Of a stretch of DNA of 35,422 nt, positions 1 through 32,174 are shown piece by piece. This stretch comes from Halobacteriales archaeon SW_7_65_23 (GTDB lineage Archaea; Halobacteriota; Halobacteria; Halobacteriales; Haloarculaceae). Position 1 is the stretch's first letter. Each line of letters starts with the position of its first letter. The translations under genes were made by a program, and so were the position numbers. The notes under the pieces were generated by a model. It was not told the origin of the DNA, ran no database searches, and saw nothing but the letters and a program-made list of their open reading frames with translations. The DNA lies in assembly GCA_003022725.1 (NCBI GenBank), contig PXSQ01000049.1, positions 34,629 through 70,050 on the forward strand, written 5' to 3'.

Positions 1-74
1 CTATGTTGCCGGATTCATCCTGCGGCTGAAGCCGCAGGTATTCTCCTCGCTCTTTATAATCACGCACGACCGTA
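1..74. mobile_element. Right part of a MITE-like element cut by the window edge (family F)
   Basis: The tip TCACGCACGACCGTA at 60-74 is identical to the right tip of the complete element at 8477-8585 and is followed by TCA (75-77), the same target trinucleotide. The left tip would lie outside the window if the length is about 109 bp as in the other copy. The interior does not match that copy; it contains a perfect palindrome at 19-38 (CCTGCGGCTGAAGCCGCAGG), a hairpin reminiscent of IS200/IS605-type ends. No transposase is seen. The TCA is followed by the stop codon of the next gene (81-83) after three bases. Confidence 0.55.
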
Positions 75-80
75 TCACGA

Positions 81-251
81 TCACCCGACTTCCTTCCACT
101 CGCGGCCGCACTCGGGACACATGCGGACCCGGCCGAGCTTGTCGGGGTCGTTCTTCGTGTCGAGCTGCTCGTCGCATTCGGCACAGGAGAGGCGCTCGTA
201 GGTGTCCTTCTCGATTTCGCCGGAGCGCAGACCCTTTTGTGTCGACTTCAT
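81..251 (-). CDS. Small zinc-finger protein, HVO_0758-like
   Basis: This encodes 56 residues starting MKSTQKGLRSGE. Two CxxC pairs (CAEC and CPEC) are about 20 residues apart, giving a single zinc-ribbon knuckle, followed by a basic/aromatic end (GREWKEVG). The make-up resembles the small haloarchaeal zinc-finger family named after HVO_0758, a recollection of the family rather than a search result. The ATG at 251 is chosen because the protein family starts there and because a TATA-like box lies at the right distance for a leaderless transcript (274-283). An upstream in-frame start would add 21 non-conserved residues and run through that box. The function is unknown; such proteins may bind nucleic acid or a protein partner. 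Confidence 0.75.
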   Translation of the reverse strand: MKSTQKGLRSGEIEKDTYERLSCAECDEQLDTKNDPDKLGRVRMCPECGREWKEVG

Positions 252-266
252 ACCCCACGGTACTTT

Positions 267-290
267 CCGGGAGTATAAAAAAGCTCCCGG
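267..290 (-). promoter_or_regulatory. TATA box inside a 7-bp inverted repeat
   Basis: CCGGGAG (267-273) and CTCCCGG (284-290) form a perfect inverted repeat flanking an AT-only stretch (TATAAAAAAG, 274-283). The AT stretch lies 23-32 bp upstream of the zinc-finger ATG at 251, where a haloarchaeal TATA box is expected. The inverted repeat could be an operator that overlaps the TBP site, or an RNA or DNA hairpin; this is inference. Confidence 0.5.
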
Positions 291-339
291 AGCCACGGAC
301 CGGCGCCGGGTCATCTGCGCGGGAACGGCCGTCTCCTGA

Positions 340-558
340 TACTGGTGGCTGTACGTACGTGGAAACTCGAATTGAGAATCCAGGCGGAACGGGTCTGTCT
401 CCGCAGATATACAGCCAGACGTGACTCCGTCCAGTGCCAGGACAGTCCATCGGCTGTGTCATGGCCCGAACAATGGGATTTGGGACGGCATGGCGTAACT
501 AAATCACGTCTGGCTGTATACCAGAGACTGGTGAATAAAAGAATTACAGCCACCAGTA
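340..558. mobile_element. MITE-like element, family A, interrupted by a second element
   Basis: The tips TACTGGTGGCTGTA (340-353) and TACAGCCACCAGTA (545-558) are perfect inverted repeats. Both sides are flanked by TGA (337-339 and 559-561), a 3-bp target repeat. An uninterrupted sister copy lies at 7392-7499 with only a few mismatches. Removing the inner element (410-518) and one TA leaves exactly the length of the sister copy. There is no coding capacity. Together with the nested element it fills nearly all of the gap between the zinc-finger gene and the glycosyltransferase. Confidence 0.85.
410..518. mobile_element. MITE-like element, family B, nested in the family A element
   Basis: This is a 109-bp element with perfect 15-bp tips TACAGCCAGACGTGA (410-424) and TCACGTCTGGCTGTA (504-518). 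It is flanked by TA on both sides (408-409, 519-520). Comparison with the uninterrupted family A copy at about 7460-7475 shows that one TA is the original target. TA duplication is characteristic of the IS630/Tc1-mariner group, so the mobilising transposase may be of that type (inference). It has no ORF of its own. Confidence 0.8.
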
Positions 559-1759: not shown

Positions 1760-1867
1760 TACTGTTGGACGTAATTTCGTGGAGTCACGCGTCACGTTCA
1801 GCCGTTCACCCGTGCGAATACAGCCAGGAGAGTGTCACGATGTGACACAGAGTTACGTCCGACAGTA
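1760..1867. mobile_element. MITE-like element, family C, directly after a stop codon
   Basis: This is a 108-bp element with tips TACTGTTGGACGTAA and TTACGTCCGACAGTA (one mismatch between the arms), flanked by TAA at 1757-1759 and 1868-1870. The left TAA is the stop codon of the glycosyltransferase. The element is the reverse complement of the copy at 9034-9141, with only two mismatches in 108 bp. It has no ORF of its own. Confidence 0.85.
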
Positions 1868-7391: not shown

Positions 7392-7499
7392 TACTGGTGG
7401 CTGTAAGTACGTGAAAACTCGAATTGAGAATCCAGGCGGAACGGGTCTGTCTCCGCAGATAGCAGAGACTGGTGAGTAAAAGAATTACAGCCACCAGTA
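7392..7499. mobile_element. MITE-like element, family A, uninterrupted copy
   Basis: This 108-bp element has the same tips as the copy at 340-558 and the same orientation, with few mismatches in the shared parts. It is the empty-site reference for the element nested in that copy. The flanks are TGA on the left (7389-7391) and TTA on the right (7500-7502). They do not match each other, and the right flank is shared with the adjoining family C element. Confidence 0.85.
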
Positions 7500-7502
7500 T
7501 TA

Positions 7503-7577
7503 TACTGTCGGACGTGACTCTGTGGAATGGCAAGACACGCAAACCGGCGTATGCACACGTTTTCACGTCCGACAGTA
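7503..7577. mobile_element. MITE-like element, family C-related short copy
   Basis: This 75-bp element has tips TACTGTCGGACGTGA and TCACGTCCGACAGTA... the right tip is read at 7563-7577. The flanks are TTA (7500-7502) and TCA (7578-7580), both of the TNA type but not identical. Its interior differs from the 108-bp family C copies. It abuts the family A copy with only a shared trinucleotide between them, and ends 10 bp before the stop codon of the MBL-fold gene. Confidence 0.8.
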
Positions 7578-9033: not shown

Positions 9034-9141
9034 TACTGTCGGACGTAACTCTGTGTCACATCGTGACACTCTCCTGGCTGTATTCGCACGGGTGAACGGC
9101 TGAACGTAACGCGTGACTCCACGAAATTACGTCCGACAGTA
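9034..9141. mobile_element. MITE-like element, family C, inverted sister of the copy at 1760
   Basis: This 108-bp element has tips TACTGTCGGACGTAA and TTACGTCCGACAGTA, and TCA on both sides (9031-9033, 9142-9144). Its reverse complement matches 1760-1867 at 106 of 108 positions. The right TCA is followed by CGA and then TCA, the stop codon (9148-9150) of the permease gene on the minus strand. Confidence 0.85.
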
Positions 9142-26981: not shown

Positions 26982-27172
26982 TACTGCCGGACGTGACTAT
27001 GTTACTCCGAGTGATGCTCATAGTGATTATTGTGAGTCGTTCCAGGATCGACCGCGCGACTACGTGCGGTCGACCCGGTACACAGTCACAATAATCACTA
27101 TCAGACTGGGGTTTTCGGTTGTCTCAGATGCTGAGCGCCATCCGGGTGGTAACGGAATCACGTCCGGCAGTA
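26982..27172. mobile_element. MITE-like element, family D, interrupted by a family E element
   Basis: The tips TACTGCCGGACGTGA and TCACGTCCGGCAGTA are perfect inverted repeats. Both sides carry TCA (26979-26981, 27173-27175). The right TCA is also the stop codon (TGA on the minus strand) of the next gene. Removing the inner element (27021-27100) and one TCA leaves 108 bp, exactly the length of the related copy at 32067-32174, of which it is the reverse complement with several mismatches. Confidence 0.85.
27021..27100. mobile_element. MITE-like element, family E, nested in the family D element
   Basis: This 80-bp element has perfect tips TAGTGATTATTGTGA and TCACAATAATCACTA and TCA on both sides (27018-27020, 27101-27103). 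The uninterrupted family D copy at 32067 has TCG at the matching place, so TCA is the duplicated target with one later change. Its reverse complement closely matches 30903-30982 (about 75 of 80 positions). It has a GC-rich centre with self-complementary segments. Confidence 0.85.
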
Positions 27173-28405
27173 TCAGATCGGGTAGACGAACCGCAGCAGC
27201 GGGAGGACGCCGACGACGATCCACAGAAGGACGCCGGTCCGCACGTGGCCCAGGTCGGCGTCGGGGTCCCGCGCGCTCCGGGAGGCGCCAGCAGCGATGA
27301 ACCCGATCGCGGCGACGACGGCGACGTGGTGGACGACCGTGTCCAGCGGCAGCGACCGCACGCCGAGGACAGTGTAATCGAACAGCAGCGTGACGAGGAA
27401 GGCGAGCGCGGCGACGGCGAACGCGGGGGTGGCGTCCAGCCTGCGGGCCGCGAGGTACGTCAGCACCGGCTCGCCGACGACGAGCACCGGCAGGAAGGCG
27501 GCGACCAGCAGCCAGGGGTCGATCCCCGGCAGCGCCCCGTGGGCAGCGATCGACCCGAAGCGGACGAACAGGTACGGCACGGCGACGGCGCCGGCCAAAA
27601 GCGCTGCACTACCGGTGTCGTCCCACCGGTCGAGGGCGGTCGCGATCCGGCGCTGGGTCGTCGCGAAACCAACGAGCATCGTTCCGCCGGCGAGCAGCCA
27701 CTGTTCGAGTTCGACGACGCTGACCCACCCGTCGGCGTCCGACCCCTTGCTGTTCCCGAACTGTTCCCGGCGGAGCTCCGCGTACTCCCGGTCCTGGAAC
27801 CGCTGGTCGACGTGACTCTGTGCCTCCTCGACGCTGTGGACGGTGTGGCGCAGCCGGAACCAGTCCCAGTGTTCGCGGTGGGCCTGGATCGCCGTCCACG
27901 TCCCGTCGGCCGGGTCGACGTACGCCCGGACGTGGTGGCGCGACCCGAAGTACTCGCCGTCGTGGAGGTGGTAGTCCGCCGGCTTCCAGTAGTGGATTCC
28001 CTCGCCAGGGGTTCTGAGCGCCAGGTAGCGGACGGCGCCCTCCGCCGGATCCCAGTCGACCCGCGGGCCCTCGATGGTGGCTGACCCCTCGTCCGGGCTG
28101 ACGTCCTGCTGTTGTTCGGGGACTTCCTCCCACTCCCCGGCGCCCTGTGCGAGGATCCGTTCGACGATCTCCGCGTCGCCGTAGACGACCACGTTGATCG
28201 GCAGCGTCCGCGTGGAGTGAGAGATCGTCTGACTGTGGTACGGCCACAGCTGCGTCCCGTCCTCGAGTTCGACATACTCGGCTTCGGCGTCGGCCGCCTG
28301 GTCGGCGTCGGCGGACTGGGTGCTCGCGATCCAGCCCCCGCTGACGACGAGCAGCGCGACGAGCAGCAGCGCCAGGGCGGTCGGGAGCGAGGGGCCAGCC
28401 GACAC
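27173..28405 (-). CDS. Membrane protein with LssY-like domain
   Basis: This is 410 residues from the GTG giving VSAGPSLPTALALLL. An N-terminal helix (ALALLLVALLVVSGGWIAS) anchors an extracytoplasmic domain: TRTLPINVVVYGDAEIVERILAQ, YWKPADYHLHDGEYFGSRHHVRAYVDPADGTWTAIQAHREHWDWFRLRHTVHS. These look like the LssY C-terminal domain, a fold of unknown role often found with PAP2 or membrane proteins. Five or six helices follow to the end (LLAGGTMLVGF, AALLAGAVAVPYLFV, LLVAAFLPVLVVGEPVLTYL, FAVAALAFLVTLLFDY, HHVAVVAAIGFIAAG, GVLLWIVVGVLPLLRF). An in-frame ATG 24 codons upstream lies inside a repeat element and is rejected; a TATA-like TTTATTG is about 25-30 bp before the GTG. Its TGA stop doubles as target repeat of the family D element. 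Confidence 0.65.
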   Translation of the reverse strand: MSAGPSLPTALALLLVALLVVSGGWIASTQSADADQAADAEAEYVELEDGTQLWPYHSQTISHSTRTLPINVVVYGDAEIVERILAQGAGEWEEVPEQQQDVSPDEGSATIEGPRVDWDPAEGAVRYLALRTPGEGIHYWKPADYHLHDGEYFGSRHHVRAYVDPADGTWTAIQAHREHWDWFRLRHTVHSVEEAQSHVDQRFQDREYAELRREQFGNSKGSDADGWVSVVELEQWLLAGGTMLVGFATTQRRIATALDRWDDTGSAALLAGAVAVPYLFVRFGSIAAHGALPGIDPWLLVAAFLPVLVVGEPVLTYLAARRLDATPAFAVAALAFLVTLLFDYTVLGVRSLPLDTVVHHVAVVAAIGFIAAGASRSARDPDADLGHVRTGVLLWIVVGVLPLLRFVYPI

Positions 28406-30875: not shown

Positions 30876-30902
30876 TGCTATACGTCACCCGACCCCGTCT
30901 CA

Positions 30903-30982
30903 TAGTGATTATTGTGACTGTTTACCGGGTCGACCGCACGCAGTACCGCGGTCGATCCCGGAACGACTCACAATAATCACTA
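30903..30982. mobile_element. MITE-like element, family E
   Basis: This 80-bp element has tips TAGTGATTATTGTGA and TCACAATAATCACTA and TCA on both sides (30900-30902, 30983-30985). It is the inverted sister of 27021-27100. The right TCA is followed by GGC and then TCA (30989-30991), the stop codon of the epimerase gene on the minus strand. Confidence 0.85.
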
Positions 30983-30988
30983 TCAGGC

Positions 30989-31887
30989 TCAGACCGGATC
31001 GAGGCCGGCGTCTTCCCGCAGGACGTTGATGTACTTCCGGAAGCCACTTTCGAGGTCGTACTGCACCTCGTAGCCGAGATCCTCCCGGGCTTTCGTCATG
31101 TCGAGGTTCTGCGTCCAGGGGAGTTCGCCCTCCCCCGAGACTTCGATGTCGGCGTCGGGCATAATCTCCGTGACAGTGTCGGCAGCCTCCTGGACCGTTG
31201 CGAGCACGCCGCGGACGTTGTAGACGCGCTGGGTGAGCTCCGCCTCGGGCGCGAAGGCGGCCCGCCGGAACGCCTGGGCGATGTCTTCGACGTGCTGCCA
31301 GTCGATCGCCTGGTCGCCGTACTCGACACTGTAGGACTCCCCGAGTGCGGGCTTCTCGACGATGTTCGCGAGGAACGCCGACCCGCCGGTTTCACGGTAG
31401 GGGCCGTAGGCGACCGTGGGACGGAGCGCGACGTGGTCGAGGCCGTAGTCCTCGTGGTAGACGCGGGCCTGGTGTTCGTTGTACTCCTTGGTCGCGCCGT
31501 ACAGCGTGTCGGGGTAGACGAGTTCGTCCTCGTCGACCCACTCGGCGTCGTAGTTGTGTGGCGGGGCGTACACCGCGGCCGAGGACGCCCACGCGACGCG
31601 CTTGACCTGGTCGTCGAGGGTTCGCGCGGCCTCGAAGACGTTAGTAGCGCCCCGAGGTGGACGATGCGGGTCGCACCGGTCTCCTTGACCGCCCGGACGA
31701 CGTCGGTCGGGTCCGCGAGGTCGCCCCGCCGGACCGTCGTCTCCCCGGCGACACCGAGTTGTTCGAGGATCTCCGTGTCCGTCGAGATGTCGTAGGCGAC
31801 GACGTCGTGGCCCTGGTCGAGCAGGTCCGCGACGGCGTACGAGCCGATGAAGCCGGTTCCGCCGGTCACCAGTACTGTTTCGCTCAT
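30989..31887 (-). pseudogene. NAD-dependent epimerase/dehydratase, internal deletion with frameshift
   Basis: This is an SDR-family sugar-nucleotide epimerase. The N-terminal part from ATG 31887 has the Rossmann motif TGGTGFIGSYAV and continues to ATRIVHLGALL. The C-terminal part in another frame has NVFEAARTLDDQVKRVAWASSAAVYAPP, the catalytic YGATK (Tyr-x3-Lys) and RPTVAYGPYRETG. The two meet near 31641-31650 at GALL/NVFEAARTL. The family normally has some 15-18 residues between these points (the VNVxGTxNVFEAAR segment), so a deletion of about 45-55 bp that is not a multiple of three is likely. As written it makes no full enzyme. A family E element ends close to its stop. The 179 bp between its start and the next element show no gene. 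Confidence 0.75.
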
Positions 31888-32066
31888 ACGTACTCCTGGG
31901 AGTGCATCTGTGGTTAGCCTACCGGTTTTGACTCCAGTGCCAGACGGACGCCGACCGGCCCGCACGTGACAGGGCCGTCACAACGTGTTGCCGAGCGTAC
32001 CAAATGACTGCCCAGTCGGCGCTGGACGCTGACTAACAAGTCACTGCGGCACTCCAAGTCTACCTA

Positions 32067-32174
32067 TACTGCCGGACGTGATTCCGTTCCCACCCGGGTA
32101 GCGCTCAGCATCTGAGACAACCGAAACCCCCAGTCCGAGCATCACTCGGAGTAACAGAGTCACGTCCGGCAGTG
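32067..32174. mobile_element. MITE-like element, family D, uninterrupted copy with one damaged tip
   Basis: This 108-bp element has a left tip TACTGCCGGACGTGA; the right tip reads TCACGTCCGGCAGTG, with the last base changed. The flanks are CTA and TTC, so no target repeat remains. It is the reverse complement of the outer part of 26982-27172 with several mismatches. It directly abuts a truncated metallophosphoesterase gene, which suggests a deletion at this element. Confidence 0.8.

Follow-up and report, generated by a model that had tools for sequence, protein, structure and literature searches.

The 219-bp element at positions 340-558 of the window, the whole 35,422-nucleotide stretch of DNA analyzed, is probably one copy of a second-order MITE that belongs to a mobile multi-copy family and is not a one-off. 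It consists of a 108-bp MITE (A) split by a 109-bp MITE (B), and the composite MITE, A(B), itself exists as a multi-copy family. Three related genomes carry this family: the window's own genome (G000, a 2.63-Mb assembly of 115 contigs that is 79% complete) and its two sister genomes (G006 and G007). A genome of the same genus (G014) and one of another genus (G027) were used for comparison.

Structure of the composite element

The features of the composite and of an uninterrupted copy of A in the window are as follows.

337-339, no strand, TGA target duplication of A, left copy
340-558, plus strand, composite MITE A(B), 219 bp, 14-bp perfect inverted ends
340-409, plus strand, left part of A, 70 bp, last two bases are the duplicated TA at 408-409
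340-353, plus strand, left terminal inverted repeat of A, TACTGGTGGCTGTA
410-518, plus strand, inner element (B) of 109 bp, perfect inverted ends of 15 bp, bordered by TA at each end
410-424, plus strand, left inverted repeat of B, TACAGCCAGACGTGA
504-518, minus strand, right inverted repeat of B
519-520, no strand, second copy of the duplicated TA
521-558, plus strand, right part of A, 38 bp
545-558, minus strand, right terminal inverted repeat of A
559-561, no strand, TGA target duplication of A, right copy
7392-7499, plus strand, solo A, 108 bp, flanked by TGA on the left and TTA on the right

The perfect inverted ends are 15 bp in A, 15 bp in B (17 bp counting the TAs) and 14 bp in A(B), and the end sequence of B is TACAGCCAGACG in short form. 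Removal of 410-520 joins the two parts of A into 108 bp that align without gaps to 7392-7499, with 104 of 108 positions identical and mismatches at positions 15, 23, 71 and 85. This match bears out the preliminary description of 340-558 as an A copy interrupted by a 109-bp element with 15-bp perfect tips, and the TAs at 408-409 and 519-520 agree with its statement that one TA was duplicated. The order of events that it gave, B entering A, also stands. Its use of 7392-7499 as a natural empty-site control is not supported: this copy is an intact A but a paralogue, and the true allele in G006 and G007 contains neither A nor B.

With lengths of 108, 109 and 219 bp, A, B and A(B) have no room for a transposase gene. 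All three are short elements with inverted ends that lack a transposase gene and occur in many copies with target duplications, as is characteristic of MITEs. A composite transposon with two flanking IS copies was ruled out; the structure is a single A split by B. The composite is intergenic, located between a short minus-strand ORF (1-252) and a plus-strand ORF (617-1759), neither of which has a Pfam match.

Abundance and distribution of A, B and A(B)

Of 284 candidates for the 219-bp A(B) query in G000, 40 were scored, and these contain 61 matching stretches. This genome has 309 occurrences of the A tip (at most 1 mismatch) and 175 of the B tip (at most 2 mismatches); both reversed control patterns occur 0 times, and the abundance of the two tips is far above chance. 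Hand counts of the A-B junction (at most 1 mismatch) gave about 52 in G000, 12 in G006, 15 in G007 and 0 in G027; solo B may account for a few of the hits with one mismatch. The corresponding numbers of unfilled A sites are 79, 42, 21 and 53. G027 has A, and B had no match in it in the search of 59 genomes; the same search detected B in G000, G006 and G007, and in G010 at 76-78% identity. A was detected in 7 of the 97 genomes searched. Phage and plasmid collections contained no match to 340-558, and viral contigs with single tips have a low GC content (0.38-0.46) and unpaired tips that were taken as chance occurrences. Stretches of G014 (for example L091:8591-8670) contain exact A tips around other short cores, about 80 bp long and palindromic inside.

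At several loci the whole composite is missing in related genomes

The window locus was located in both sister genomes, and neither A nor B is present there. G006 aligns with window positions 56-300 and G007 with 81-300, and both align with 574-1731. The aligned blocks lie about 52 bases apart, versus 273 in the window. The flanks of the empty site are 83-96% identical and the alignment extends both ways. Three further pairs of loci have a composite in one genome and nothing in the other (L024/L158, L139/L011 and L146/L026, judged mainly by the lengths between aligned flanks). A composite in G007 (L143) corresponds to a 65-bp A remnant in G000 (L021), and one pair of loci (L131 and L149) has the composite in common. 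The preliminary description took the nest as the record of a B insertion at this locus, a claim that is not supported: dozens of loci have the same composite, and the site is wholly empty in G006 and G007. An empty site alone does not exclude the arrival of A first and B later.

Two loci differ in B only. A has the same TGA flanks in G007 (L079) and G006 (L159), and B is present in G007 alone. The left flank is common to a G000 locus cut by a contig end (L115) and a G006 locus (L161), and B is present in G000 alone. The comparison of A with A(B) between shared flanks at these two loci shows that a resident A can acquire or lose B. The lone A copies (L159:15625-15732 and L161:1783-1890) read GAGAG, not GATAG, and their relatives at these loci have A(B). 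The dominant picture is arrival of the composite as a unit, though an A already present can also gain or lose B.

The window copy most likely came as a ready-made 219-bp unit rather than as A followed by B, a reading drawn from the dozens of junctions, the empty sister sites and the A and B variants that copies share. In this history, the 109-bp B would have inserted at a TA within the 108-bp A in an ancestor of G000, G006 and G007. A transposase acting in trans on the A ends could then move or copy the whole 219 bp because both A ends stayed intact, and TNA would be duplicated each time. This transposase is inferred to be IS630-like in nature. The window copy would have landed in front of ORF 617-1759 after G000 split from its sisters.

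Target duplications match this history. TNA is identical on both sides of 24 of 28 full composites, and the T and A are correct in 28 of 28. Solo A has identical TNA flanks in 38 of 43 copies and most C elements, members of another family, also have identical TNA flanks. B copies flanked by something other than TA were sought as disproof of a TA target. The B copies outside A have TA on both sides in 22 of 28 cases, and the remaining six have an altered flank or tip base or are divergent hybrids. The preliminary description gave TNA as the target of the outer element and TA as that of the inner one, and this is upheld for A and for solo B.

Divergence among composites was used to follow the common history of their parts. 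The comparison used 27 composites, those for which the fetched flanks took in both ends of A and B measured 106-107 bases. Over this set, distances in A show no correlation with distances in B (Mantel r = -0.11, p = 0.76), and those of the left and right parts of A hardly correlate with each other (r = 0.15, p = 0.17). This lack of coupling is put down to limited statistical power or else to reshuffling among the copies. Four full G000 composites, including the window copy, have common B variants. The A parts of this window clade differ by a mean of 2.7 bases, versus 6.8 over all G000 foursomes, and 4 of 715 sets of four, the clade itself included, are as close in A; the test was post hoc, since the clade was picked after its B variants had been seen and after the 27-composite test had failed. 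The window clade is read as having spread as a unit upon a background of exchange between copies.

B occupies a single site within A

The fetched stretches contain 90 B-like records, of which 37 lie within A (the element of L029 is counted twice), 19 adjoin A on one side and 34 lie outside A, where C- and D-like elements are included. All nested B copies inspected occupy one identical TA of the seven TAs in A. B is oriented minus relative to A in 28 records and plus in 9, and a single insertion alone would require inversion or exchange to account for both orientations. The outermost bases are mostly G and C in nested B, T and A in solo B, and T and A in the window copy; the window clade shows all four combinations among its four full composites. 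Derivation of the G..C end bases from the target base was rejected, as it would not yield C on the right.

These observations bear on a history in which B repeatedly enters resident A copies at the same favored TA, facing either way, 340-558 being one such event. The constant site, the two orientations and the uncoupled A and B distances fit repeated entry, and clean TA/T...A/TA junctions in varied A backgrounds and both orientations (the window copy, L070 and L146) look like separate events. This history is nonetheless unlikely for the window copy: the four loci of its clade have variants of both A and B in common, the symmetric G..C ends in most nested B are almost absent from solo B and point to few founders, and no A-only allele is known for the window locus.

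The mixed end bases (T/C and G/A) inside one clade introduce the other process by which B might fill resident A copies, namely gene conversion or crossing-over that spreads B and swaps its interiors and end bases while the composite itself does not transpose. The 19 half-composites, in which only one side of B adjoins A, are in keeping with such exchange, as are A/B/C chimeras, two loci with GAGAG on the left and CTAG on the right (L135 and L121), and the two loci at which one genome has A(B) where another has a lone A. Exchange without transposition of the composite is doubtful, however, as loci at which a relative lacks the whole of A(B) imply a transposition somewhere in their history and the homology arms are short, at 70 and 38 bp.

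The target motif of B is altered in a fraction of the solo A copies. GAGAG replaces GATAG, so that the target TA becomes GA, at 23 of 42 sites in G006, 12 of 21 in G007 and 21 of 79 in G000 by hand count; a G007 sample of A copies chosen in part for GAGAG was left out. None of 12 A copies in the B-free G027 has GAGAG, in a sample taken as the top matches to a query with GATAG and hence biased toward that motif. GAGAG is possibly an excision scar of B, a route that would require either that both TAs were lost or that a base was substituted.

The ends of A resemble those of IS630-type elements

A DDE_3 transposase is present in 30 of 79 genomes searched and none was found in G000, G006, G007 or G027, all four of which are incomplete assemblies. 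DDE_Tnp_1 is represented in G000 by 3 fragments only, none enclosed by a pair of A or B tips. G000 thus yielded no source enzyme. Several candidate autonomous partners were discarded. Widely spaced A tips in G000 (L040 and L030) come from split or half copies that have host genes in the interval and mismatched flanks, single A tips of G014 belong only to MITEs with other cores, and the wide A-tip pairs followed up (L039, L108, L123 and L240) are multi-layer composites.

A complete 1,114-bp element in G029 (L254:699-1812) has long perfect inverted ends and a duplicated TCA. Its 340-residue protein scores 241 bits against the NCBIfam IS630 model and 111.5 bits against DDE_3; relatives of this transposase were absent from viral contigs. 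Seven other elements on haloarchaeal plasmids or in relatives (L255, L263 and L278-L282) are about 1,070 bp long with TACT-type ends and TNA on both sides. TNA is identical on the two sides of 6 of these 8 IS630-family elements (those with TACT-type ends among 17 loci tested), a count slightly favored by the bonus given to matching flanks when element ends were scored; the T and A are right in 8 of 8, and the TACT.. ends and the length of about 1070 bp recur across elements. ISNamo16 (L277), L251 and L283 appear TA-flanked, and the TA-flanked and TNA-flanked elements alike encode IS630-type transposases.

The haloarchaeal IS630-family elements with TNA (L254, L255, L263 and L278-L280) have A-like ends, with TAAGTACGTGAA at one end and GGCTG..ATTCTTT at the other. 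They differ from A in their length of about 1.07-1.11 kb and in carrying a transposase gene, which A lacks. The left end of A agrees with the IS630-type end at 15 of 22 bases beyond TACT, a score equaled by 0 of 1093 control 26-mers, and the right end agrees at 13 of 22 bases, equaled by 8 of 1093. The ends of B agree with those of C and D, a fourth family, at 16 of 22 and 17 of 22 bases, equaled by 3 and 1 of 5431 control 25-mers. Judged by these ends, A, C, D and perhaps B would lie near one IS630-like group and would not represent unrelated systems. A direct ancestor of A was not found among the haloarchaeal IS630-family elements examined.

The proposal that an IS630-type system for B and an unrelated TNA-type system for A met once at this spot is highly improbable: the TA and TNA duplications differ and no shared partner transposase is known, but haloarchaeal IS630-type elements duplicate TNA and have A-like ends, the B ends resemble those of the TNA families C and D, and the nest is not a single event. 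The corresponding claim of two unrelated mobilizing systems in the preliminary description is not sustained. The preliminary description also placed B in the IS630/Tc1-mariner type. B shows the TA duplication typical of these elements in the solo copies, but a scan around the 30 DDE_3 loci found none with the ends of B; B is not filed as IS630 because it has no partner transposase with its ends.

The usual definition of the IS630 family includes duplication of TA, from which A departs by duplicating TNA. IS630-type elements themselves duplicate TNA, so the TA definition may be too narrow. A is assigned only as carrying IS630-like ends, a putative relationship based on sequence. A TNA target of IS630 was undescribed in the literature searched, with subscription papers and ISfinder outside the scope. 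A haloarchaeal IS630-type group that duplicates TNA is suggested by these elements and, if true, would alter the assignment of small TNA-flanked elements.

Further layers and chimeras

Triple nests of 308-330 bp, A(B,C), occur in G000 (L108:1020-1341, L039:1645-1952 and L027:7459-7766) and in a contig of SW_10_66_29 (L240:2860-3189). The right-hand part of A(B) has C inserted at a TGA, in either orientation, and the outer TNA flanks match in 3 of 4 triple nests, L027 being without its right end. A fourth element with ends like TACGGTCGTGCGTGA lies within B, itself within A, at L123:1255-1585. Chimeras consist of a C core between A ends (including L042:8047-8169) or of B joined to C inside A, and the TNA flanks match in the three cases L042:8047-8169, L019:583-798 and L112:1203-1427. 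Many composites have internal deletions, and most multilayer, deleted or chimeric forms retain matching TNA flanks. Whatever stands between A ends seems to travel. One could speculate, at rather long odds, that B is a specialized rider that lands at one TA of A and is copied by way of the A ends, that the TA-less GAGAG form of A common in B-bearing genomes marks an escape contest, and that C joins the ride.

Relation to known nested elements

MITEs nested in MITEs are known from plants and animals. A literature search on nested MITEs, in the portions of the sources available, found no description of prokaryotic MITE nests that spread as a unit, and the word 'nested' is absent from the available text of a review of prokaryotic MITEs (PMC10969869). 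The accessible part of a study of Haloquadratum walsbyi tabulates 192 element-in-element events, none of them into a MITE (PMC3119063). The MITEs in the available part of this source are like A and B in being short, non-coding and mobile without an intact partner transposase in the genome, with inverted ends and target duplications, but it lists no MITE-in-MITE, and here the MITE-in-MITE is multi-copy. The H. walsbyi element SMR-A, as the same partial source describes it, is about 110 bp long and targets IS605-type elements and PATEs (PMC3119063). SMR-A is like B in its length, inverted ends, many copies and strongly preferred site inside another small mobile element. It differs in having no target duplication (PMC3119063, available part), whereas solo B duplicates TA and nested B lies in an IS630-like MITE. 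B was rejected as an SMR-A element for its TA duplication. Through hundreds of element ends in three related genomes, the A(B) system lets one follow in prokaryotes how non-autonomous elements nest, fuse and continue to spread, and it could show whether a nest is cargo or sabotage.

Other MITEs in the window

The window contains further elements of the C and D families.

1760-1867, plus strand, C element, 108 bp, flanked by TAA/TAA
7503-7577, plus strand, C-type element, 75 bp, adjoining solo A via TTA, far flank TCA
9034-9141, minus strand, C element, 108 bp, flanked by TCA/TCA, orientation opposite to 1760-1867
26982-27172, plus strand, D element, 191 bp, ends intermediate between B and C ends, flanked by TCA/TCA
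32067-32174, plus strand, D element, 108 bp, non-matching flanks

The solo A and the 75-bp C-type element share a single TTA and together span 7392-7577, with TGA and TCA as outer flanks. Two long inverted repeat pairs overlap D elements. The first (27012-27110 and 30893-30991) is 90% complementary with a spacing of 3.8 kb, and the second (27101-27173 and 32066-32138) is 93% complementary with a spacing of 4.9 kb.
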